From a virus, in IMG/VR virus record IMGVR_UViG_3300040960_000575, positions 1 to 27,553 of that record: a stretch of 27,553 nt of DNA. The stretch is one strand, 5' to 3'. Within the stretch, counting starts at the first letter, position 1, and each line of letters opens with the position of its first letter. The position numbers were made by a program, and so were the translations under genes. The notes under the pieces were generated by a model. It had not been told where the DNA came from. It worked only from the letters and a program-made list of their open reading frames with translations, and searched no databases. Shown piece by piece: positions 4,022 through 26,960 of the stretch.

Positions 4022-4264
4022 TCACGGTTGCTCTGGCCAAACAACGCTGCCGGGAAAGCCGTCTTGCTGCGGAACATCGCGCAGGGCCTGACGATAGGTC
4101 GCCCATGCGGCTTGATCCACAGGTGCATCCGCCACTTGCGTCCAATCTGAATCGGCAAGAATAGCATTGCGCATTTGCCTGATCTCGGCCTCGCTCACAA
4201 CGGGCGTATAGTCCTGCTGCGTTGTTTCGCCGGTCTGGGCATTGATGATGATTTCAATTGCCAT
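4022..4264 (-). CDS. Tail-fibre assembly chaperone domain protein (Phage_tail_APC-like)
   Basis: This 80-residue protein consists of a short beta-like start (AIEIIINAQTGET) and a domain with RNAILADSDWTQVADAP, AWATYRQALRDVPQQ and GFPGSVVWP. This is the signature of the phage tail assembly chaperone family (Phage_tail_APC type), which helps trimeric fibres fold or attach. The same domain closes the 172-residue protein at 17181-17699, also next to fibre-like genes. Here it follows the putative fibre at 4264-4800 with a 1-base stop/start overlap (TAATG), so the two are probably partners. Confidence 0.8.
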   Translation of the reverse strand: MAIEIIINAQTGETTQQDYTPVVSEAEIRQMRNAILADSDWTQVADAPVDQAAWATYRQALRDVPQQDGFPGSVVWPEQP

Positions 4265-13399: not shown

Positions 13400-14623
13400 T
13401 TACTCTGCCACTTTGCCGATGGCGATTGCGTCGAAGCTGGTCACATCTCCGCCAACACGCTGCGTCGTGTAGTAGGTCACGAAGCCTTTGTTGGTGTAGG
13501 GGTCACGCAGCACTTGCAGGCCAACACGGTCGAGGATCGTGTAGGCTACCGAGAAATCGGCATAGACAATGCTCAGCGCGTTTGCAGCGACGGCGGGCAT
13601 GTCATCCATGAAGATGACCGGTTTGCCGAGAAGCTGCATCGTTGCCTGACCATTGGCCAGCAGGACCGGGCTGAAGAAGTAGTTGTCGTTCCCCTTCAGT
13701 TGCAGCGCCGCCCCGAAGGTGGTGCGCTTCATGCCCCAGACTGCGCCAGGCTGATAGGCTTCCTTGAGTGCGTTCTGCACTTCAATCAGGCCGTCGGCAT
13801 TCAGCGCAGCAGCCGTGCCCATGTTGACCTGATTGATCTTGCCGCGCTCATAGGTTCCCGAGACCGCCTGTGCCGGATAGGTCAGGAAGCCGCGAGGCTG
13901 GTTGACGCCCGTGCCGTTGACGAACGCGGTGTTTTGCGTGCGTGCAAACTTGTCGGCGACTTTGCCAGCCAGCCATGCCTCGACATTGAGGTAGGCATCC
14001 TCGATCATCTCAGTCGTCATGCGCGGATCGGCTTCGATCTTGTGCGCAGCGATGACCTTCTGGCCGAGTTGCGGCGTGTCCGTCTGACCGCCCGATGCAC
14101 CTTCGCCGACCCAGCGTGCGGCAGCTTCATCGTCATCAATCAGGATGTCGATGGACTTTGCGCCGGTCTGCTCAACGTTTGCAACACCGCGCAGAGGCGA
14201 CGTTTCAAAGATGCGCGAGACGATGGTTTGCGACAGTTCCGGGCGCACGAGGTAGCCGCCGTCCGGGTTTACGTCGGTGGACATGGCCTTGATTTCGACG
14301 CCTTCCGATCCGGCCTTGAAGCCAGTCGGCAGTGTGCCGTAAGCCATGTATTCGCGCAGGGCGTCACGATGCTTGGCCTCGACTTCTGCGTCGGTGCCTT
14401 TGCCTTCGCCGCCGGGGCGCTGCATTGCAGCTTCCAGCTTGGCCTGCTTGGCTTGCATCTCCGCCATTTTGGCGGTGATGTCGTCGGCCATTTTCTGGTG
14501 CTTTTCTTCGGTCACGACGTCCTTCGGAGCGTCGGCTTTCAGCGCGTCGATCTCCGAGCGGAGTTCAACGAGCGTCGGGTTGATCTTCTCGACCAGCCCT
14601 TTGATTTCCTGAATATCAGACAC
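13400..14623 (-). CDS. Major capsid protein, HK97 family
   Basis: The start is GTG (14621-14623) with AGGAGG (14629-14634) 5 bases upstream. The product (407 aa) has an N-terminal coiled-coil delta/scaffold domain (about 1-95, with DALKADAPKD and AEMQAKQAKLEAAMQ). The mature capsid fold follows with GGYLVRPELSQTIVSRIFET, an E-loop (AARWVGEGA, then KIEADPRMT) and DAYLNVEAWLAGKVADKFA. Later come GTGVNQPRGFLT and the final DFSVAYTILDRVGLQVLRDP. It would assemble into an icosahedral prohead and be cleaved after the delta domain, near residues 100-120, by the adjacent protease. Length fits the family. Confidence 0.95.
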   Translation of the reverse strand: MSDIQEIKGLVEKINPTLVELRSEIDALKADAPKDVVTEEKHQKMADDITAKMAEMQAKQAKLEAAMQRPGGEGKGTDAEVEAKHRDALREYMAYGTLPTGFKAGSEGVEIKAMSTDVNPDGGYLVRPELSQTIVSRIFETSPLRGVANVEQTGAKSIDILIDDDEAAARWVGEGASGGQTDTPQLGQKVIAAHKIEADPRMTTEMIEDAYLNVEAWLAGKVADKFARTQNTAFVNGTGVNQPRGFLTYPAQAVSGTYERGKINQVNMGTAAALNADGLIEVQNALKEAYQPGAVWGMKRTTFGAALQLKGNDNYFFSPVLLANGQATMQLLGKPVIFMDDMPAVAANALSIVYADFSVAYTILDRVGLQVLRDPYTNKGFVTYYTTQRVGGDVTSFDAIAIGKVAE

Positions 14624-15434
14624 GAGTGCCTCCTATGTTTTTCAGGGTTTCAGTGAGCAGGGCTTTGAGTTCGTCAACGTCTCGTTGAACCAGCTCAGGA
14701 TCAGGCGTGTCTGCGTCCCGCAGAACCTCCGCCCGTGCCTTCCATGCGCCACCAGCCATAGCCTTCGCCATGCGGTTCGAGTGGCCCATATCTTTGAACG
14801 CGCGCTCAAGATCGCGCTGCGTCATATCTTCGGCCTTCATCGCGTAGATGTTGGCCATTTCATTCATGGGGAATGTGACAACGGATGTTTCCCATAGGTC
14901 CAGCTTGGTCAGCTTGCGCGCGCCAGCGTCCATGTCCATTTCGTATTCCTGCGTGCGATAGCCGATGCTCAGGCCCTCGATGCCGCCCATTTCGATCAGA
15001 TCGGCAATCTCACCAGCCTTACCCTTGCGGCTGATCCGGCCCTTCATGAATAGGCCGTTTTCGTCCTCACGCATTTGATCCCATGCACCAATCGGCTGTG
15101 CGGGATCGTGGTTCCAAAGCATCTTCGGCTTGCGGCCCTTGGCGATGCACTCCTTGAATGCGCCAGGCATGACAATATCGCCGCCGTTGTCCTTGTTGCC
15201 AAAGACTGAGCCGTAGCCAGAGATTGTAAGGTAGTCGTCGCTTTTATCCTCAATCTTAATCTCAAGAAATGCCAGCTTGGTTTCCAGCGGTTCGCCGCCG
15301 TCCTTGCTTTCCCATTTGGAAACGCAAACAGCGAAGCGTTGGTCTATTTCTGGAAAGTCGCGCACCTGCTCTGCATCGCCCATACAACGCTTGATCCAGT
15401 CGGCGCGGGTTTCACTTGATTGAGGTGTCGGCAT
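14616..15434 (-). CDS. Prohead (HK97-type) maturation protease with N-terminal CMGD domain
   Basis: The ATG at 15434 is chosen because it follows a promoter and AGTGAGG, whereas the longer frame (to 15491) would start inside the promoter. Residues 1-43 form an accessory domain (RCMGDAEQVRDF, DQRFAVCVSKWE) that is duplicated as a separate gene at 20952-21161. The protease core follows, about 50-215: ISGYGSVFGNKDNGGDIVMP, LWNHDPAQPIG (His109) and GLSIGYR (Ser156), the usual U35-family residues. The C-terminal 55 residues are helical. It would cleave the capsid delta domain. The gene overlaps the capsid start by 8 bases. Confidence 0.9.
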   Translation of the reverse strand: MPTPQSSETRADWIKRCMGDAEQVRDFPEIDQRFAVCVSKWESKDGGEPLETKLAFLEIKIEDKSDDYLTISGYGSVFGNKDNGGDIVMPGAFKECIAKGRKPKMLWNHDPAQPIGAWDQMREDENGLFMKGRISRKGKAGEIADLIEMGGIEGLSIGYRTQEYEMDMDAGARKLTKLDLWETSVVTFPMNEMANIYAMKAEDMTQRDLERAFKDMGHSNRMAKAMAGGAWKARAEVLRDADTPDPELVQRDVDELKALLTETLKNIGGTRV

Positions 15435-15463
15435 GTCTGCCCTCACTTTGCAAATTTGCATGC

Positions 15464-15492
15464 AATATATCACAGGTCTGCAAACTTGCAAA
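15464..15492 (-). promoter_or_regulatory. Predicted promoter of the protease-capsid genes
   Basis: On the minus strand a -35-like TTTGCA (15487-15492) and a -10 TATATT (15464-15469) are separated by exactly 17 bases. A TGA immediately before the -10 gives an extended -10. TTTGCA-type words recur: in the -35 itself, in GTTTGCAG just downstream, and in TTTGCAAAG near the ribosome site. They could bind a regulator. A near twin lies at 21190-21218. Confidence 0.6.
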
Positions 15493-15499
15493 GTATGGT

Positions 15500-15628
15500 T
15501 CAGTCAAGCGATGCGATTGCCTCGGCAATCTGGCGGCGAAAGCGGCGTTCCAGAACGTCAAGCATTCGGCTCTGGATTTGCGCCTCACGCTCTCGGCTAT
15601 GACTGATGAATGCAGGCTTACGGAGCAT
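15500..15628 (-). CDS. Small basic helical protein (42 aa)
   Basis: An ATG (15626-15628) overlaps the stop of the upstream BppU-like gene by one base (TAATG), and a TGA at 15500-15502 closes it. The 42-residue product is one long basic, amphipathic helix: SREREAQIQSRMLDVLERR, then FRRQIAEAIASLD. The tight junction and helix pattern suggest a real gene. It resembles, weakly, the first helix of head-morphogenesis or portal-adjacent proteins, so a remnant is possible. Confidence 0.5.
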   Translation of the reverse strand: MLRKPAFISHSREREAQIQSRMLDVLERRFRRQIAEAIASLD

Positions 15629-15951
15629 TATGCTACATCGTCAATTATAACAACTGAAATATAGCCATCGTTCGGGAAGGTCTCTATGCTTGCATCAGCG
15701 TAAGTGACCTCAAATTCAGCTTGATACGACCCCTTTTTTTCTGTGTCATTTTCTGACCAATCATATCTCACAACGCCTGATAAAGCCGTGACAATTGTAG
15801 CTGTCTCATCAACTACTACGGTTGATTTCCCAATGAGGCGCATGTGAAAGCGAACAGATGATCCTGTTAAATTAACCGCATTGCCATTTGCATCTTGCAG
15901 CGTTGCCAGCATTGCCGGACTGGTGTCATTTTGTTTAATATAAAACGGCAT
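15628..15951 (-). CDS. BppU-like baseplate/adhesin N-terminal domain protein
   Basis: This 107-residue protein reads YIKQNDTSPAMLATLQDANG, then VNLTGSSVRFHMR, VDETATIVTALSGVVRYDWS and YQAEFEVTYADASIETFPND. That is the immunoglobulin-like pattern of the BppU N-terminal family (baseplate upper protein or tail attachment domain). Residue order and length match a single domain. Its DNA is only about 40% GC in a counted 60-base stretch, below the capsid genes. It follows the 23-residue-repeat gene with a 1-base overlap and belongs to the adhesin block. Confidence 0.75.
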   Translation of the reverse strand: MPFYIKQNDTSPAMLATLQDANGNAVNLTGSSVRFHMRLIGKSTVVVDETATIVTALSGVVRYDWSENDTEKKGSYQAEFEVTYADASIETFPNDGYISVVIIDDVA

Positions 15952-17177
15952 TATGCGGCCTCATTGGCTTCAGAAACAACGACATTATTTGGCGTGTTCT
16001 CGGTTAAAATACTATAGTTTGTCCCATCTGTCACCACTGCCACGCTATTTGATAGTGCAGAAACATGCACTTCACGGCGGCGGCTTGCGTTGATGAACAT
16101 CGCAGGCACGACAGGATTGCCCGTGGTAATCGCCACCGCGTCGAAGGCGTAGATGACGACGATCTGCGCAGCGCCGACAACAGGCGCGCCCGTGGTGATC
16201 GTCTGCGCGTTCAGGCCATCAACCTGGGCGATGCTGGAGGCACCCAGCGTCGGCTGACCCGTAGTGATGCCGTCAACGTCTATCAGAACCGTGATCTGCG
16301 CCGATGCTTCGCTGACAGTCGGCGGCGCAGTCGTGATGTTGGCCGCTGTTAGATCGTGAACCTGCGCGATGCTGGACGCGCCAATGACAGGCTGACCCGT
16401 AGTGATGCCATTTGGCACAATATCGTGAATTTGTGCTAGATCGGCAGACCCCACCGTGGGAATACCAGACGTGATCGGGTCTGCGTTGAAGGTCTCATCC
16501 CCGGACATCGTAATGCCGGGAATGGTCGGCTGACCCGTAGTAATACCATTGCCCGCGAGGGAATGTTCCTGCTCGATGCTGGAAGCGCCAACAGTCGGGT
16601 TGCCTGTGGCAATGTCGTCGCCGGTAAGGCCGGTTGTCTCGATGAGGCTGGGCGAGCTTACAACAGGCTGGCCCGTCGTGATTGACGTTGCCGATAGCGC
16701 GTGATCCTGAACAACCGTTGATGACTGGATCGTCGGCGATCCTGCCACCAAGCCATCTGCGGCAAGATCATGCTCTTGAGTGATGCTGGATGCACCGACC
16801 ACTGGGCTGGCAGTCGTGATAGGATCAGCGTTAAAGGTCTCATCCTCGGACATGGTGATGCCCGGAACGGTCGGCTGACCCGTAGTAATGGCGACAGGGA
16901 CAAGATCGTGTTCTTGGGCCAGATCGGAAGCACCGACAACAGGCTGACCAGCTGTGATACCTACGGGAGCAAGGTCATGCCCTTGAGCAATAGTGCTATT
17001 ACCGACAGTCGGTTGACCTGTAGTGATAGCCGTAAGAGCAAGGTCGTGAACCTGAGCAATCGCGGGTGACCCAACAACAGGATTGCTCGTGACGATGTTA
17101 TTGCCGACCAATTCGTAGACGACAATTCCCCCATCATCCGCAAGGGGCGCAGAAGCTAGAGGGTTGAAGCCAAGCAT
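15951..17177 (-). CDS. Repeat-built fibre-like protein with fifteen 23-residue repeats
   Basis: This 408-residue protein starts with a GFNPLASAPLAD leader (residues 1-26). Fifteen copies of a 23-residue unit run from 27 to about 365 with no insertions or deletions in register; the consensus is roughly xITTGQPxVGASSIAQxHDL plus three variable residues. Units 4 and 9, five apart, share a PGITMSxDETFNAD variant, pointing to older block duplication. The tail (about 366-408) is a small beta-like cap (SNSVAVVTDGTNYSIL). The regular length suggests a beta-solenoid or stalk in a fibre. No catalytic motif is seen. It lies between a chaperone-domain gene and a BppU-like gene. Confidence 0.75.
   Translation of the reverse strand: MLGFNPLASAPLADDGGIVVYELVGNNIVTSNPVVGSPAIAQVHDLALTAITTGQPTVGNSTIAQGHDLAPVGITAGQPVVGASDLAQEHDLVPVAITTGQPTVPGITMSEDETFNADPITTASPVVGASSITQEHDLAADGLVAGSPTIQSSTVVQDHALSATSITTGQPVVSSPSLIETTGLTGDDIATGNPTVGASSIEQEHSLAGNGITTGQPTIPGITMSGDETFNADPITSGIPTVGSADLAQIHDIVPNGITTGQPVIGASSIAQVHDLTAANITTAPPTVSEASAQITVLIDVDGITTGQPTLGASSIAQVDGLNAQTITTGAPVVGAAQIVVIYAFDAVAITTGNPVVPAMFINASRRREVHVSALSNSVAVVTDGTNYSILTENTPNNVVVSEANEAA
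16083..17099 (-). repeat. Tandem array of 69-bp (23-codon) degenerate repeats
   Basis: Fifteen tandem units inside the fibre-like gene keep a strict 69-base spacing, and all begin with a codon block for xITTGxP. On the plus strand many contain GGCTGACCCGTAGTGAT-like stretches (for example around 16255, 16388, 16528 and 16876). The similarity is diverged at DNA level but clear at protein level. Confidence 0.8.
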
Positions 17178-17180
17178 CGT

Positions 17181-17699
17181 TTACTCCGGTTTAGCGGGCC
17201 AGACGACCGAGTAGGGGAAACCCTCTTGTGTTGGTATATCACGAAGCGCCTGACGATACGATGCCCAAGCTGGCGTCATGGTGTTGTCGCTCAGAGCCAT
17301 CCAGTCGGTGTCGGCCAAGAGGCGGTTGCGCTGGTTTCTGACAGCATCTTCTGCCTGATCCTGCGGCCTGTTCTCAACCGTGTAGCCCACAAGCCATTCG
17401 TTGCCGTAGATGGGCTGCCCGACCTGCGCTTGATCCACCTCACCAGTGACAGGATCGGTTGCATCTTCCTCGGTCTTCAGCCGGATGACTTCCTTGTGAG
17501 GCATGGCATCGCGCTTGAGCGTCTGCACCAGCGGGTCAAAGTCAGGCTTCGGCAACTCAGCCACAGGATACACGCCATAGCGGCGCATGATCTCGTCAGG
17601 GATAACCTTCGGGAAGCTGGTCTGCGGATTATCACGGCGAAATTGCCCGACACTGTAAGGGAATTGGTCAGGCTGGCCGTTTGTTAGTTTGACGAACAT
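17181..17699 (-). CDS. Tail-fibre assembly chaperone-like protein (172 aa)
   Basis: The N-terminal half (FVKLTNGQPDQFPYSVGQFR, DNPQTSFPKVIPDEIM, GVYPVAELPKPDFDP) resembles the N-terminal region of fibre-linked phage proteins. The C-terminal 50 residues repeat the chaperone domain of the 80-residue protein at 4022-4264: RNRLLADTDWMALSD, AWASYRQALRDIP, GFPYSVVWP. It lies between the propeller-like genes and the 23-residue-repeat fibre, so it may assist one of those. It starts at ATG 17699 after AAAGGACTGACACA. Confidence 0.8.
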   Translation of the reverse strand: MFVKLTNGQPDQFPYSVGQFRRDNPQTSFPKVIPDEIMRRYGVYPVAELPKPDFDPLVQTLKRDAMPHKEVIRLKTEEDATDPVTGEVDQAQVGQPIYGNEWLVGYTVENRPQDQAEDAVRNQRNRLLADTDWMALSDNTMTPAWASYRQALRDIPTQEGFPYSVVWPAKPE

Positions 17700-17723: not shown

Positions 17724-18569
17724 TTATAATAGGTCATATTCGTTAACGTCTTGTCCACTAACCCCTACAATATACATCTTTAGGCCATCAGGCTTGAAGA
17801 AGACTCCTCGTGGACTTGTCTCTTGAGCAGAGACAGAGAAGTTCTGAAGATAAGAAGCTGAAGAAATATCCCAAGCAGTGCTTAGGTCATATTCGTTAAC
17901 GTCTTGTCCACTAACCCCTACAATATACATCTTTAGGCCATCTGGTTTGAATAAGACTCCCATTGGACTTATCTCTTGAGCAGAGACAGAGAAGTTCTGA
18001 AGATAAGAAGCTGGAGTAATATCCCAAGCAGTGCTTAGGTCATATTCGTTAACGTCTCGTCCACTAGCCCCTAGAATATACATCTTTAGGCCATCAGGCT
18101 TGAAGAAGACTCCTCGTGGGGTTTTATCTTGAGCACCTACAGAGGACCTCTGAAGATAAGAAGCTGAAGAAATATCCCAAGCAGTGCTTAGGTCATACTC
18201 ATTTACATCGTCTCCACTAGACCCTACAACATACATCTTTAGGCCATCTGGTTTGAAGAAGAATCCTTGTGGACTTATCTCTTGAGCAGCTACAGAGAAG
18301 TTCTGAAGATAAGAAGCTGAAGAAATATCCCAAGCAGTGCTTAGGTCATACTCGTTAACGTCTCGTCCACTAGCCCCTAGAATATACATCTTTAGGCCAT
18401 CTGGTTTGAAGAAGACTTCTATTGGGACTGTATCTTGGGCAGAGACAGAGAAGTTCTGAAGATAAGAAGCTGAAGAAATATCCCAAGCGCCAACTGGATC
18501 ACCACTACCAGCGCCACCTGAATCACCACTACCAGCCGCTCCCATCTGCATCAGTCGAGCAATACTCAT
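17724..18569 (-). CDS. Beta-propeller-like repeat protein, five near-identical repeats
   Basis: The first 27 residues are a Gly/Ser-rich leader ([18 protein letters not shown]). Five 51-residue units follow with consensus [17 protein letters not shown], a variable stretch, then [13 protein letters not shown] and GQDVNEYDL. This YVTN/SGL-like blade pattern is usual in beta-propellers. The DNA units are exactly 153 bases apart and almost identical, whereas the same repeats in the upstream gene are diverged. The DNA is about 40% GC in a counted stretch, against about 63% for the capsid, suggesting transfer. It overlaps the upstream gene by 4 bases (ATGA). The role is probably as an adhesin, paired with its neighbour. 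Confidence 0.72.
17727..18487 (-). repeat. Five tandem 153-bp near-identical repeats
   Basis: The CCAAG of the plus-strand stretch CCCAAGCAGTGCTTAGGTCA recurs at 17871, 18024, 18177 and 18330, and an edge copy starts at 18483, always 153 bases apart. The units encode the five 51-residue blades. Differences cluster in the variable stretch after FSVSAQ and in one or two codons of the VGVSGQD loop. Such repeats can expand, contract or swap by recombination. Confidence 0.9.
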
Positions 18570-19951
18570 GCCAGTGCATCTCCTGCTTGGAAGCCGTACC
18601 AGTTCGTCCCACTGTCAGTGGTGTAGAACACCAGCACATCTGTCTCACCATCAGCAGGGGCATCAGGGGCTGTGCCTGAGGGCCAATCAACAGAAGCCGG
18701 ATAAGTGATAGTGGCGGGGGCTGATGTGCCTGTGGTGTATTGGTAGATGGTGTCGGTGGCAGAGCCTACGACATACATTTTCGTGCCGTCAGGTTTGAAA
18801 AATACGCCATTTGGTGAAGTTTCTTGAGTGCCGACCCCAAAAGAAATGCTGTTATAGGTTGCGGTCGATATGTCCCAAGCTGCGCTTAAATCATACTCAT
18901 AGACGCTGTTGGCTTGATCCCCAACGACATACATCTTTGTTCCATCTGGGTTAAATAATACATCCTCTGGTGCATTGTCTTGCGTAACAACGCTGAAACT
19001 TTGAACGTATGATGCGCTAGAAATGTCCCAAGCTGTGCTTAAAGAGTATTCAAATACCGCATCGTTTGTTGCTCCAGAGACATACATCTTTGAGCCATTA
19101 GGCTTGAAAAACAAGCCTCTAGGAGTGGCAACCTGTCCAGAAACGCTGAAGTTTTGAAAGTATGATGCAGAAGATACATCCCAAGCCGTGCTTAGGTCAT
19201 ATTCATTCACATCATCCCCGTCAAAACCTGTTATATACATCTTGCTTCCATCAGGCTTAAAAAATAAACCAGATGCACCGAGTTCTTCGGTTGCAACACT
19301 GAAGCTCTGTAAAAAAGAGGCGCTAGTTATATCCCAAGCAGTGCTAAGGTCATATTCGTTAATGTCGTCGCCACTAGCCCCAAGGATATACACCTTCGTG
19401 CCGTCAGGCTTAAAGAAAATGGCCTCAGGGCTTCCCTCCTGCCCCGCCACGCTAAAGCTAACACTATCATAACTCGCATTAGCTAGGTCATACCCAGACA
19501 CAACATTCGTCCCAGTAACAGCCAGAGCAAAGCCAGTGGCAGTGCCAGACGCAGGTGCGTTGCTGAAGGTAAACGTAGTGTTAGCTGTGGGGGTGTATGC
19601 GAAGTAGTTGCCAGTGGAGGCGTCAATATCAGAGCCGCTGATGGTGCCGACACTGCCCTCAAGAAACGAAAGATTTGTGGCCGACGCATAAACTACGGCA
19701 GAACCGCTTAGGCTGATAGCGGCACCAGAATTGCTGCTTTCCTCGACGGAACGTGAAAGCGTAGTGTTAGAAGCAGTATATGTGCCTATTCCGATTTCCC
19801 AGTTGTTGCCGTCCTCGATGACATAGCGAACCTTGTCGCCGTCAGAAAGAACGTCGGAAAATCCTTGATAGCCTGCCTCGGCGGAGCCAAGGGTTATTGT
19901 CCCAGTACCCACAGTAGAGGTTGCGGCCTTTACTCTGTTGACCAGCTTCAT
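18566..19951 (-). CDS. Fibre-like protein with inserted five-repeat propeller-like domain
   Basis: Residues 1-153 and 406-461 align with the upstream 201-residue protein (19948-20553). The first part begins [20 protein letters not shown] and runs to about [14 protein letters not shown]. The last part has [20 protein letters not shown] and GFQAGDALA. Between them, residues 154-405 hold five diverged propeller-like repeats ([38 protein letters not shown]). This is therefore the same scaffold with an inserted array. The repeats resemble those of the next gene downstream. Shared four-base overlaps link the three genes. Receptor or surface binding is inferred from composition and context. Confidence 0.72.
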
Positions 19952-20553
19952 GCCATCGCATCCCCAACTTGGAAGCCATAGTAGGTCGTGCCGCCGTCAG
20001 TGGTGTAGAATGTATATACGTCAGTCTCGCCAGACGCTGGAGCCGTGGGTGCTGTGCCACCTGCCCAATCAACCGAGGCGGGCCAAGTCACTGTCACTGT
20101 CGCAGAGGGCGTCACCTTCAGCGTGAAGCCATATGCTGTGCCAGATGCGGGCGGGTTGCTGAAAACATACGTCACGTTGGCAGATGGTGCGTCAGAAAAC
20201 ACGTTGCCCGTGGACAGGTCCAGAGTGCTGGAGGCGATTGTGCCGACTGTTTCCTCGCGAAAGTCTGCGTCGGTAGCCGACACATAAACCACCGCGCTGC
20301 CGGACAGGTTCAGCGCAGCATCAGCATTGGAACTCTCGCTCACAGTCCGTGTAAGGGTCGTGCCAGAGGCCGTATAGGTGCCTGTGCCGATCTCCCAGTC
20401 AGTACCGTCCTCGATCACATAGCGGACAACCTCCCCGTCAGCCACACCAGCATCAGCAAACGACTGATAGCCGCTTTCAGCGGTGCCGAGCGTGATCGTC
20501 CCCGTGCCAGTCGTGGCCGTGGACATCTTGGCGCGGTTGGCGAGAGTTACCAT
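19948..20553 (-). CDS. Fibre-like protein, scaffold without propeller insert (201 aa)
   Basis: Ser/Thr/Ala/Gly-rich and predicted all-beta. It begins [20 protein letters not shown] and includes [20 protein letters not shown], then [16 protein letters not shown]. It ends with [20 protein letters not shown] and GFQVGDAMA. The YVIEDG..WEIG.GTYT and final W..G.AP motifs recur in tail-fibre N- and C-domains of marine alphaproteobacterial phages. The downstream gene has the same two ends around a repeat array. It overlaps that gene by 4 bases. Its likely role is a structural fibre or baseplate component, unproven. Confidence 0.68.
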
Positions 20554-20593: not shown

Positions 20594-20965
20594 TCAGGCA
20601 GGGTCGGGGATACCGATTGCGACCGACGACAGCGTGAAGGTGTTGCCCGAGGTTACCGACTGCGAAGCCGTGAGTGAACCAGTCGCCAGCAGGCGGCTGT
20701 TGCTGGTGTCCACAATCGCATAGTGCGTGGCGGTGCCAGTGCCAGTGACCGAGCCATCGGTGATCGCATCGACGACAACCTCGCGACCTCCACCGGAGCG
20801 ATCTTGCGGTGCGCCGATGGACAGCGAAGTCGAGTTGCCAAGCGTGTAGGTGCTGGTAGCGGCGGCATAAGTCGCCGGCTCCTGCGAGCAGATGTCGATG
20901 CGGTTTGCTTCGGTGTCGAGAACGGTCAGGCCGTTGTCAAACACCCGGTCGTTAAGTGTAGCCAT
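20594..20965 (-). CDS. Small beta-rich structural protein (123 aa)
   Basis: It begins ATLNDRVFDNGLTVLDTEAN, followed by RIDICSQEPATYAAATS, a Gly-rich loop (IGAPQDRSGGGREVV) and VTGTGTATHYAIVDTS, and ends SVAIGIPDPA. Proteins of this pattern are common beside tail-fibre genes in rhodobacterial phages, but I cannot name a function. The start overlaps the CMGD-domain gene by 14 bases. A tail or head decoration role is possible. Confidence 0.65.
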   Translation of the reverse strand: MATLNDRVFDNGLTVLDTEANRIDICSQEPATYAAATSTYTLGNSTSLSIGAPQDRSGGGREVVVDAITDGSVTGTGTATHYAIVDTSNSRLLATGSLTASQSVTSGNTFTLSSVAIGIPDPA

Positions 20966-21161
20966 TATTCATCTCCTTGGCTAAGTTCTCTAGCGCGCGC
21001 CCGATACCAATCACGGCCAGCTGCTCCGATCTTTCTTCCCATTTGGATACGCAAACTGCAAAGCGTTGATCGGCATCAGGAAAATCCGCAACTGCCTCGG
21101 CATCGCCCATGCAGCGGTCAAGCCATTCATCTCGGGCTTCGCCTGATCTTGGTTCTGGCAT
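20952..21161 (-). CDS. Small CMGD-domain protein, paralogue of the prohead protease N-terminus
   Basis: The first 43 of its 69 residues match the protease N-terminus at 30 of 43 positions by my count (RCMGDAEAVADF, DQRFAVCVSKWE). Two conserved Cys are kept (17 and 37). The remainder is a short helix (LENLAKEMNNG). It has its own upstream promoter-like region similar to the protease promoter. It lies between the Mu-F-like head gene and the adhesin block, so it may be a stand-alone helper of the protease or a remnant of an older protease start displaced by insertion. Confidence 0.75.
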   Translation of the reverse strand: MPEPRSGEARDEWLDRCMGDAEAVADFPDADQRFAVCVSKWEERSEQLAVIGIGRALENLAKEMNNGYT

Positions 21162-24742: not shown

Positions 24743-25076
24743 CGGGCTTTACGCCACGCAGCACGATGGTTTCGGGCGGGGACATGCTGCCGTCGCTAGA
24801 GATAAAGTCGTGCCGCTCGGCCCAGCGTGCGCGGGTTTTCATCCAGAAGATTTGCGCGGCTGTGTCGCCGCCTTTGGCTTTGTTGAATAGCGCCCCGCCG
24901 ATTGTGGCGTTGGCCTTGTCCATGCCGAGATCAAGTTCATCGCGATAGTGCTTGCGCAGGGTCTTTGGGTCAATGCCTATGATGCGCGCGATGTTTTCGG
25001 ACTTCGTGCCGATGGTGGCGTGTAGCTGGACTAGCTGACGCTGTTCTGGCGTTGGTTCATGCGGGTGGCGCGGCAT
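24723..25076 (-). CDS. Terminase small subunit-like protein
   Basis: This 117-residue protein carries a helix-turn-helix: GTKSENIARIIGIDPKTLRK, with TLRKHYRDELD after it. A helical region follows (ANATIGGALFNKAKGG, QIFWMKTRARWAERHDF), the classic TerS order of DNA binding then oligomerisation. The IFWMKTRARWAE motif is frequent in alphaproteobacterial phage TerS-like proteins. Its position directly before TerL supports the call. It overlaps the methyltransferase gene by 20 bases. Confidence 0.88.
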   Translation of the reverse strand: MPRHPHEPTPEQRQLVQLHATIGTKSENIARIIGIDPKTLRKHYRDELDLGMDKANATIGGALFNKAKGGDTAAQIFWMKTRARWAERHDFISSDGSMSPPETIVLRGVKPDDASDN

Positions 25077-26310
25077 TGCTTAGTTCCTCGTATGTCTTGC
25101 CGGTTTCCTCATGTATAGCACATTCTCCGGTAAAATCCTGCCAGCGTTTGATGATGACGTCGCAGTATTTGGGGTCAAGTTCCATCATGCGGCAGTCGCG
25201 GGCTGTCTTTTCGCAGGCGATGAGGGTGGAGCCGGAGCCGCCGAAGAGATCAAGAACGATGCCTGTATTTTTTGCAACTATTGCAATGCCGCGCTCTGGC
25301 AAATCAACAGGAAAGCAGGCTTTGTGATTTTCTGCTTGCGCACCTGTGTTGCTTACTTGCCAAAAATTGCTTGTTACTTCCTTGACCGCTACAGGCTGCT
25401 TGTTTGTTGAGAACACATAGATAGGTTCCCAATCTCTCATCAATGATCCTTTGAATGGAATTGTGCTGCTTTTTTTCCAGCATATTTGCTCAACAAGATA
25501 TGGAAGCCTGCCCGATATTTGCTGGATGTATTCAAATCTTGATTTAGCGTTATAGCTGACGTTCCAGAAGATGAAGCCATCAGTTACGGCAAAGCATACC
25601 TCCAAAACAGATGCGGCAAAATCAACATAAGCCTGAGATGGTAGGTTATCAGAATATCCGTCTGCATACAGCTTCACGCTTTTTTTCTTGTTGAAAATGT
25701 CTCCCTGACCAGCCTTGGCGTCTGCATTATACGGCGGGGATGTAAACACCATGTCCGCCTTGCGCCCATCCATCAGCTTCTCAACCGCATCAATGCTGGT
25801 GCTATCTCCGCACATCAGCCGATGACGCCCCAGAAGCCACACGTCGCCCTCAACCGTGACAGGCTGCACTGGAACGTCTGGCACCGCGTCCTCATCGGTC
25901 AGGCCCTCGGTGACTTCCTCGGGAAACAGCGCCTGGATTTCGTCTACATCAAAGCCGGTCAGGGATAGATCAAAATCCATCTCTTGCAGGTCTGAGATTT
26001 CGAGCGCGAGAAGTTCGTTGTCCCATTCGGCCAGTTCAGCCACCTTATTGACGCTGAGCCGGAAGGCTTTGATCTGCGCCTCGCTCATGTCATCGGCGAG
26101 GACAACTGGCACCTCGGTGAGGCCCAGCTTTTTGGCGGCTTTCAGGCGAAGATGCCCGTCAACCACGGTGCCGTCACTCTTGGCGCAGATTGGCACGCGG
26201 AAGCCGAACTCACGGATGGCCGCTGCTACCTTATCAACTGCGTGATCGTTTTTGCGCGGGTTTCGCGCGTAATCAACGCAGCGCTCAATGGGCCAATGCT
26301 CAAACTGCAT
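25057..26310 (-). CDS. ParB-domain DNA methyltransferase
   Basis: Residues 1-~125 form a ParB/Srx-type domain (NPRKNDHAVDKVAAAIREFG, DGHLRLKAAKKLGL). Residues ~150-400 are a DNA amino-methyltransferase with TSPPYN (190-195, motif IV) before LDLFGGSGSTLIACEK (SAM motif I, 353-368). That order gives the beta class, and SPPY favours N4-cytosine, but N6-adenine is possible. It probably modifies phage DNA to evade restriction. The start overlaps the HNH gene by 11 bases. GC falls to 21 of 60 bases at 25441-25500 in the middle, against 38 of 60 at 25801-25860, pointing to a swapped target-recognition region. Confidence 0.9.
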   Translation of the reverse strand: MQFEHWPIERCVDYARNPRKNDHAVDKVAAAIREFGFRVPICAKSDGTVVDGHLRLKAAKKLGLTEVPVVLADDMSEAQIKAFRLSVNKVAELAEWDNELLALEISDLQEMDFDLSLTGFDVDEIQALFPEEVTEGLTDEDAVPDVPVQPVTVEGDVWLLGRHRLMCGDSTSIDAVEKLMDGRKADMVFTSPPYNADAKAGQGDIFNKKKSVKLYADGYSDNLPSQAYVDFAASVLEVCFAVTDGFIFWNVSYNAKSRFEYIQQISGRLPYLVEQICWKKSSTIPFKGSLMRDWEPIYVFSTNKQPVAVKEVTSNFWQVSNTGAQAENHKACFPVDLPERGIAIVAKNTGIVLDLFGGSGSTLIACEKTARDCRMMELDPKYCDVIIKRWQDFTGECAIHEETGKTYEELSNAAPPA

Positions 26311-26833
26311 TTTTAACTTCCTTTAGCTTGACAGGGGGAACGCTCACTGTTCGCCACGTTTTCCCAGTTACTGCGTCGTATGCTGTCAGCTTCTTTAACC
26401 CCATGCCTTCAGCGACACTCATGAATGGCTCACCAGCGGCAACCCTCAATCTCATCTCAGATACCAAGGCTTCTGTTAGTTTTGCATTGTGATGCTTTTC
26501 ACCAGGATGCGCACCAAAGGCGGTTCCGTGCTTATACCTATCATGGGCGTTTTCAAGCCTTGTAGCCCAGCGCAGGTTTGAAACGCAGTTGTTCAAGTTG
26601 TTCCCATCGTTGTGTGCAACGTCAAGATTTTCCCATCCTTCTGGAAGACCAATCCATGCCATTGCCACAAGCCGGTGAACGTTTCTCCAGTGATATTTTC
26701 CAGACCTGTAAAGCCCAACACTCTTGTATCCAAATCGGTGCTTTGGCTTCAAAATCTTCTGAAACCGTTTGCTTTTGACATCGCCAGTTGCGCTGACCTC
26801 ATAGCCATCAAAAGTTGGTATTGCCTTGAACAT
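26300..26833 (-). CDS. HNH homing endonuclease with NUMOD4
   Basis: The ATG at 26833 has GGAGG 6 bases upstream, and the longer frame to 26866 is a shadow. Residues 1-22 are NUMOD4 (FKAIPTFDGYEVSATGDVKS), the usual opening of phage HNH nucleases. The HNH domain follows: VHRLVAMAWIGLP (His53), VAHNDGNNLNNCVSNLRW (His74) and conserved Asn. A C-terminal helix-turn-helix (LTEALVSEMRLRVAAGEPFM, SVAEGMGL) would read DNA. It sits between a truncated ParB-methylase N-terminus and an intact methyltransferase, consistent with a homing event. Confidence 0.9.
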   Translation of the reverse strand: MFKAIPTFDGYEVSATGDVKSKRFQKILKPKHRFGYKSVGLYRSGKYHWRNVHRLVAMAWIGLPEGWENLDVAHNDGNNLNNCVSNLRWATRLENAHDRYKHGTAFGAHPGEKHHNAKLTEALVSEMRLRVAAGEPFMSVAEGMGLKKLTAYDAVTGKTWRTVSVPPVKLKEVKNAV

Positions 26834-26960
26834 TGATTGCCTCCACTTCACAGGCACAATAACCAAACTTTAGCCAGTTCGCAAACCTAAACCGAACTTC
26901 CAAGGCATACGGAATGAGATCAGCTACAGAAATTGTTTTATACGCGGGAAAATCACTCAT
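26808..26960 (-). pseudogene. Truncated ParB-methylase N-terminus (50-aa remnant)
   Basis: The ATG at 26960 overlaps the upstream stop (ATGA). The first 19 residues (SDFPAYKTISVADLIPYA) are the usual opening of ParB-domain phage methylases, in which an asparagine-rich ParB core normally follows PYA. Here the frame changes right after PYA into unrelated residues (LEVRFRFANWLKFGYCACEV), which are the AT-rich leader of the HNH gene. The DNA switches from near-backbone GC to AT-rich at that point. It looks like an older methylase start cut off by the HNH cassette. It may still be translated as a tiny peptide. Confidence 0.55.

Follow-up and report, generated by a model that had tools for sequence, protein, structure and literature searches.

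A phage protein built of gapless 23-residue repeats, probably a fibre shaft that lengthens or shortens by whole units

A repeat protein (REP; 15951..17177, minus strand; 408 aa, ATG start, computed pI of approximately 4.05) is encoded in a 27,553-base virus record, the whole of which is here called the window. We consider it probable that REP forms the shaft of a thin virion fibre used in adhesion, an oligomeric beta structure that gains or loses length by whole units. In the proposed arrangement, the N-terminal tag (MLGFSPLASAPL...) would anchor REP at the virion end, and a row of two-strand beta units of a fixed 23-residue length would make up the shaft, with several identical chains probably wound together (a homotrimer is a guess). 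The far end would be closed by a tail of approximately nine-residue repeats or, in some relatives, by another C-terminal module. In this phage, the BppU_N-domain protein encoded next door would be the best candidate for an attachment partner. With interchangeable units, recombination among them would change the length of the fibre in whole steps, up or down.

The 23-residue array and its variation in length

The N-terminus of REP ahead of the array is 26 residues long and opens with MLGFNPLASAPLADDG (residues 1-16; 17130..17177, minus strand), a tag that is kept in relatives and is the proposed anchor. From residue 27 (17099) through residue 371 (16065), the protein follows a 23-residue register without a single gap, forming units 1-15 (16065..17099, minus strand). 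Self-identity is 0.288 at lag 23 and 0.354 at lag 115, whereas the top value among 2000 shuffles of REP (lags 5-59) was 0.146. The initial annotation had described fifteen 23-residue units in register. The lack of indels and the excess over shuffled sequences bear this out, but unit 15 is half degenerate, keeping only its first half before running into INASRRREVHV, a joint that is alike in many relatives. Fourteen full units plus a half unit is therefore the fairer count. Similarly, the xITTGxP opening ascribed to every unit is exact in only 8 of the 15. It holds as a consensus, and proline at position 7 together with I, L or V at position 2 is found in 15/15 units.

Units 4 (16824..16892, minus strand; E at positions 16 and 18) and 9 (16479..16547, minus strand; G at 16, E at 18) do have the PGITMS variant in common, as first noted, and are identical at 87% of residues (20/23) and 86% of nucleotides. 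From this pair, a shaft built by block duplication had been proposed. However, the neighbouring pairs are only 39-48% identical (48% for units 3/8, 39% each for 5/10, 6/11 and 7/12), and on this low identity we rejected the duplication of a five-unit block within the window. An offset of five units does give the highest identity within REP (mean of 9.7/23, against 7.6-9.1 for the other offsets from 1 to 8), but the excess is accounted for by the unit 4/9 pair (20/23). The duplications seen in relatives are exact and of one or two units.

The array is succeeded by a C-terminal tail of 37 residues (372-408; 15954..16064, minus strand), made of approximately nine-residue repeats and ending NEAA. 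Among 63 distinct tails, 20 are 37 and 10 are 28 residues long, while lengths of 19 and of 55-57 form lesser groups. The 58 tails of at least 27 residues are most self-similar at lag 9 (identity 0.18, as against at most 0.12 in shuffles). The cap domain suggested for this end is indeed a distinct short element, but it looks like a repeat of approximately nine residues and not like a globular domain. Other C-terminal ends occur in some relatives, either WTEQ-type repeats or a phrog_8198 domain (L086, L079, L113). The latter is present in 58 phage records; among the 30 that were listed, 2 (both from one phage, S-SCSM1) are annotated as virion protein, 24 as hypothetical and 4 carry no annotation.

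An ORF with at least three units was found in 117 of the 120 parsed loci. These represent 102 distinct proteins, of which 79 are complete. The three loci with fewer than three parsed units comprise two in which the tag precedes other repeats (L047, L048) and one cut copy (L061). Comparison of unit number in relatives, which had been put forward as a check, was informative: the 79 distinct complete relatives contain from 4 to 24 units, with the length of 23 residues mostly kept. There are no gaps between units in 64/79, and gaps are confined to multiples of 23 in 68/79 (degenerate units falling below threshold). In the other 11/79, a gap may be as small as a slip of one residue or as large as a long inserted domain (L088, L100). 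Stretches of approximately 240-260 residues without units lie mid-shaft in L088 and L100 and after the N-terminus in L120. That of L088 had no PHROG match and that of L100 only a weak one (E = 0.0014).

Unit number also differs between near-identical phages. L076 and L077 have 19 and 18 units, and L018 and L027 have 12 and 10, with both flanks 100% identical in each pair. L034 and L037 have 11 and 10 units, with flanks 99 and 100% identical. In these pairs the extra units are exact nucleotide copies, which makes recent recombination a likely cause of the change, while assembly collapse could mimic a change in length and is a possible source of the apparent difference. A wider set of 26 pairs had flanks more than 90% identical and differing parsed unit counts. 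The length difference is an exact multiple of 69 nt in 10 of them, a non-multiple in 12, and only 0-3 nt in the remaining 4, where it lies in the parsing. Those of the non-multiple pairs that involve L029, L031 or L032 also have a shortened linker ahead of unit 1. For the REP-family pairs computed, dN/dS was 0.10-0.51, demonstrating at the level of sequence that the family is under coding constraint. Moreover, a unit of the E-x-E type stands seventh from the end in 34/60 proteins, the place occupied in the window by unit 9, whereas at any one position counted from the N-terminus such a unit is found in at most 14/63. The last seven units thus tend to keep their order, and growth of the array seems to take place mostly ahead of this conserved end.

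The cassette and its genomic setting

The structural genes of the window lie on the minus strand and include terminase, portal, head morphogenesis, protease, major head protein, head-tail adaptor and tape measure. The cassette containing REP, likewise on the minus strand, opens with a conserved 123-aa protein (20594..20965) that matches phrog_240, 'head protein' (E = 8.8e-7), and in Pfam has a Gp80 match of 19 bits, below the cut-off of 27. This is followed by a short protein matching tail-fibre families (19948..20553; phrog_9017, E = 1.1e-7), a fibre-type protein with propeller-like repeats, matched in both Pfam and PHROGs (18566..19951), and a protein of 51-residue propeller-like repeats (17724..18569). 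Just upstream of REP is a tail fibre assembly or chaperone-type protein (17181..17699; PF16778, E = 2.7e-20; phrog_4912). The gene directly behind REP encodes a BppU_N-domain protein of 107 aa (15628..15951; PF10651, E = 5.6e-9, 36.3 bits against a cut-off of 23.1), and its ATG overlaps the REP stop codon (TAATG).

Several other features of the window were observed in passing. Propeller-like repeats are common to the two adjacent genes at 17724-18569 and 18566-19951 (minus strand), the former consisting of five copies of a 153-nt (51-residue) unit with 88% matches. A second fibre-assembly-type C-terminal domain is encoded at 4022-4264 (minus strand), near the tail end of the structural genes, and compares with that of 17181-17699 (minus strand) at 54% over 57 aa, as seen through L002. 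A stand-alone ORF of 69 aa (20952-21161) has a small domain in common with the N-terminus of the head protease (14616-15491, minus strand; 68% over 44 aa, also seen through L002). At the packaging end, a ParB-like/DNA methyltransferase gene adjoins an HNH endonuclease gene (25057-26866, minus strand).

The synteny of the cassette was followed in relatives fetched by similarity to the window, the per-locus counts including some contigs fetched twice. A BppU_N gene was next downstream of REP in 78/90 loci reaching far enough (66/76 distinct proteins) and was missing in 12/90, even though these are the closer relatives. A fibre-assembly gene lay within 300 nt upstream in 68/98 loci (58/85 distinct proteins), the 123-aa protein was present in 43/45 loci with at least 4.5 kb upstream (39/41 distinct), and all five cassette genes were found in order in 37/117 loci. 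Among the 42 loci with 3.3 kb downstream, only one matched the protease or head gene of the window, and this was L002, a copy 100% identical to the window over the cassette region. Because matches to these genes are so rare, the cassette, judged by its gene neighbours, is not tied to one phage type.

The place of the cassette in the gene order varies. In the window it is flanked by the portal and major head protein genes, and in L077 by portal and a major head protein different from that of the window. In L106 the set, here without the BppU_N gene, comes after a major head gene that is likewise a different one. In the archaeal tailed virus HRTV-25 (L123 290-5330), a laminin G domain protein, gp7 (1569 aa), is followed by a BppU_N protein, gp8, and the pair stands ahead of terminase and portal; no dominant 23-residue period was found in gp7 or in 13 other neighbour proteins tested. 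According to PMC10747895, rings of BppU-kind N-terminal domains hold trimeric tail fibres in TP901-1 and 80alpha, and a ring of neck passage (NPS) proteins of the BppU kind has been modelled at the TP901-1 neck. A BppU_N-type domain is associated with projecting fibres in the TP901-1 BppU and NPS proteins, as it would be in the REP cassette. However, the TP901-1 fibre protein has this domain as its own N-terminus, whereas in the REP phage it is encoded by a separate, overlapping gene directly behind. By analogy with the TP901-1 and 80alpha rings, the 107-aa protein may play a ring-type holding part for the fibre.

Because the cassette is found among head genes, and because BppU_N-like rings may hold neck whiskers, REP could form a fibre of the head or neck (a whisker) instead of one on the tail. 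This is a specific version of the adhesion-fibre proposal, with odds that overlap with it, and we hold it as a tentative option, somewhat short of an even chance. The portal, cassette, head gene order of the window and L077, the HRTV-25 pair and the neck passage proteins of TP901-1 all favour it. Against it, the 123-aa protein, fibre, REP and BppU_N genes of L090 come after a distal tail protein and tail tip J.

The putative fold of the shaft

Unit statistics were drawn from 570 distinct units in 63 distinct gapless complete proteins with at least five units, one of which is identical to that of the window. The consensus has G at position 5, P at position 7 and alternating conservation over positions 13-21. 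Across the 570 units, positions 14/16/18/20 carry 1.77/2.07/2.23/2.76 bits of information, compared with 0.71/0.42/0.76/0.43/0.40 bits at positions 13/15/17/19/21. The even-odd difference is 1.66 (bootstrap over proteins 1.62-1.71; permutation p = 0.008), and the 14 units of the window itself follow the same order of alternation. Such alternation would be typical of a strand conserved on one of its faces, which over positions 13-21 reads I-Q-H-L or M-E-E-F. Of all position pairs, the strongest covariation is of 16 with 18. T, V, A, S, G and I are abundant in the units, Lys and Arg are nearly absent, and T, A, S, G and P make up approximately half of the composition. By charge and hydropathy, the array falls on the folded side (H = 0.526, boundary 0.441).

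AlphaFold2 was run on the full-length REP monomer (28 sequences; pLDDT 33.2, pTM 0.19) and on a monomer of the last seven units (62 sequences; pLDDT 43.3, pTM 0.14), and both models contained little or no secondary structure. Structure prediction had been proposed in the initial annotation as a check, with a disordered outcome counting against a shaft. No confident fold emerged, which touches on that point, but low monomer confidence cannot tell a disordered chain from one that folds only as an oligomer. The pattern of conservation and the position on the charge-hydropathy plot lean towards an ordered, and so perhaps oligomeric, state.

As for the beta-solenoid fibre shaft first pictured for this array, the register, beta pattern and fibre-gene setting uphold much of it, while its single-chain form has fared less well. 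In that form each 23-residue unit would be one coil of a monomeric rod which, with the 4.8 Å rise per coil of beta-solenoids, would be approximately 7 nm long for 15 units. Both the constancy of unit length across relatives and the regular hydrophobic positions 2, 9, 14 and 20 would suit such a rod. However, monomeric solenoids are usually modelled well by structure prediction, yet two AlphaFold2 monomer runs failed, and only approximately four positions in every 23 are conserved and hydrophobic. The failure of the monomer models speaks against an ordinary single-chain solenoid, which we consider unlikely, and would be better fitted by an obligate oligomer.

It is quite unlikely that the array is a disordered or flexible low-complexity linker, its period fixed by recombination between units and not by structure. 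The very low pLDDT of both runs, the preponderance of T, A, S, G and P and the exact unit duplications of relatives are all in keeping with such a linker. Yet unit length is maintained even as the units diverge, conservation alternates and is accompanied by i,i+2 covariation, the array plots on the folded side, and dN/dS is below 1.

Among known fibres, an oligomeric REP shaft finds partial likenesses. Adenovirus-type beta-spiral units are approximately 15 residues long. PMC7565637 describes the shafts of the adenovirus fibre and of reovirus as trimeric beta-spirals of strictly repeated short beta units with Gly/Pro turns. REP resembles these in its short strict units, and with G at position 5 and P at position 7 it may also have comparable beta strands and Gly/Pro turns. 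From the rises that PMC7565637 gives, a shaft of 15 units would measure approximately 30 nm if built like a spiral and approximately 17 nm if built like a triple helix. It differs in having a 23-residue unit without a sequence relative among solved structures, and in that a trimer is, for REP, a guess. The same source gives the Orsay virus delta protein as a pentameric beta-bracelet head fibre with an eight-residue (L/V)x2Vx4V motif. Delta is likewise a repeat-built shaft, and its repeats are near in length to the nine-residue repeats of the REP tail, whereas the 23-residue unit, compared by eye, misfits the motif as given there. Sequences of solved structures, searched with profiles A2 and A3, yielded one chance match (4u08, LIC11098, E = 0.23) and nothing, respectively (profile A2, 27 relatives; profile A4, 61 relatives). 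We take 4u08 to be a leucine-rich repeat protein. The leucine-rich repeat motif is LxxLxL, and such a reading of REP was rejected, as the motif is not found in the unit consensus.

Relatives, the N-terminal tag and other repeat shafts

REP does not convincingly fall into any Pfam or PHROG family on these searches. Its only Pfam match is to Lipase_3 (E = 2.5e-4, 21.4 bits, below the cut-off of 22, over one 21-residue stretch), and its best match in PHROGs has E = 0.18. Lipase_3 also matches 6/28 family members in Pfam, at best with E = 1.1e-8 and probably above the cut-off, but this identity was rejected as an artefact of the repeats. Matches among the same 28 members extend to 7 PHROGs with unknown or unrelated names, each hit by 1-2 members, the best being phrog_14640 (E = 2.5e-8, one member). 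The family as defined here (MLGF-tagged) has an N-terminal tag, a gapless 23-residue array and a short-repeat C-terminal tail ending in Ala, all of which are found in REP. It likely belongs among repeat-built phage fibre shafts, an already known kind; no description of the family itself was found in the open-access literature searched.

A scan of IMG/VR found 43 relatives of REP, and a second scan, using a profile of the N-terminal 104 residues, confirmed at least 312 stretches, the best 80 of which were examined. The sole match to REP among annotated phages is gp57 of the cultured Roseobacter phage CRP-6, deposited as a hypothetical protein (422 aa, 14 units parsed, one 23-residue gap). It is related to REP by sequence and synteny, being followed by a BppU_N-like gp56, but is only 22% identical. 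CRP-6 is reported to have a short tail (PMC6918029). Queries with the consensus, with VTG-22 and with the tag gave no match among annotated phages, for which the low-complexity filter is probably partly responsible. One cultured bacterium, Thalassovita litoralis DSM 29506 (L046), contains a diverged copy of REP (9 units parsed, some gaps). Its neighbours there are genes for the 123-aa protein, for a fibre protein and for a BppU_N protein; a fibre-assembly gene was not matched around it.

The N-terminal tag also heads proteins with other repeats (L047 18-515, L048 8001-9314 and part of L125-L194), and in the IMG/VR set those that are not of 23 residues mostly have a period of 20-22. A BppU_N-like ORF, judged by eye, follows in L048. 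A tag-only scan found at least 120 stretches, 80 loci of which were listed, giving at least 73 distinct proteins. Among the 73 proteins from the matches listed, 36 have at least three 23-residue units and 37 do not. When those of at least 140 aa were considered, again among the matches listed, 64/66 beat their own shuffles and 63/66 had a best period of 20-23 above them (lags 12-35), several being near copies of one another. The best period was 23 in 35 of the 66 listed, 22 in 22, 20 in 5 and 21 in 1. A BppU_N gene came next in 9/28 assessable 23-residue proteins and 3/26 others among the tag-only matches listed. The BppU_N partner is therefore not general across tag-headed proteins, and it is the tag, not the partner, that is the common element.

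A profile comparison over the first 110-115 shaft residues revealed no similarity between the 23-residue class and the other shaft classes, with scores of 7.4-7.7 against the VTG-22, SFALTGQ-22 and 20-residue classes and 4.4-7.4 for reversed controls. VTG-22 and SFALTGQ-22 scored 14.1 with one another (E = 0.12; reversed control 8.1), and on these profiles the two may be distantly linked. L152 and L186 have 22-residue repeats and a short-repeat tail ending NYNKAA, with a BppU_N gene behind, and in at least this one case the short C-terminal tail is common across shaft classes. They also contain an inserted domain of 97 residues, different from the phrog_8198 domain, which aligns at 45% identity with part of a P-TIM68 protein that is annotated tail fiber-like. 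It is very improbable that REP is a secreted or cell-surface protein (a decoy or adhesin) that the phage carries outside its virion: although we only infer its virion location, REP is embedded in a structural cassette with a fibre-assembly gene, and a tag-headed protein has a domain in common with that tail fiber-like protein.

The diversity of tag-headed proteins raises the idea of a plug-in fibre system, in which a tag of approximately 12 residues accepts unrelated beta-repeat shafts, all of 20-23-residue units; we think this doubtful at present. If true, it would mean a common new oligomeric beta fold, with unit number setting fibre length, and the Q-x-H or E-x-E face of the 23-residue class might line the axis with polar or ion-binding layers, one to each unit.

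If REP is indeed the shaft of an adhesion fibre, it would represent a widespread class of phage fibre that has yet to be named and in which the sequence reveals the length, and it would be a candidate for a new fibrous fold. For metagenomic phages in which no receptor-binding parts are annotated, it would also be a likely adhesion module. Moreover, changes of length in exact steps between near-identical phages would be a natural test of the part that fibre length plays in adsorption.
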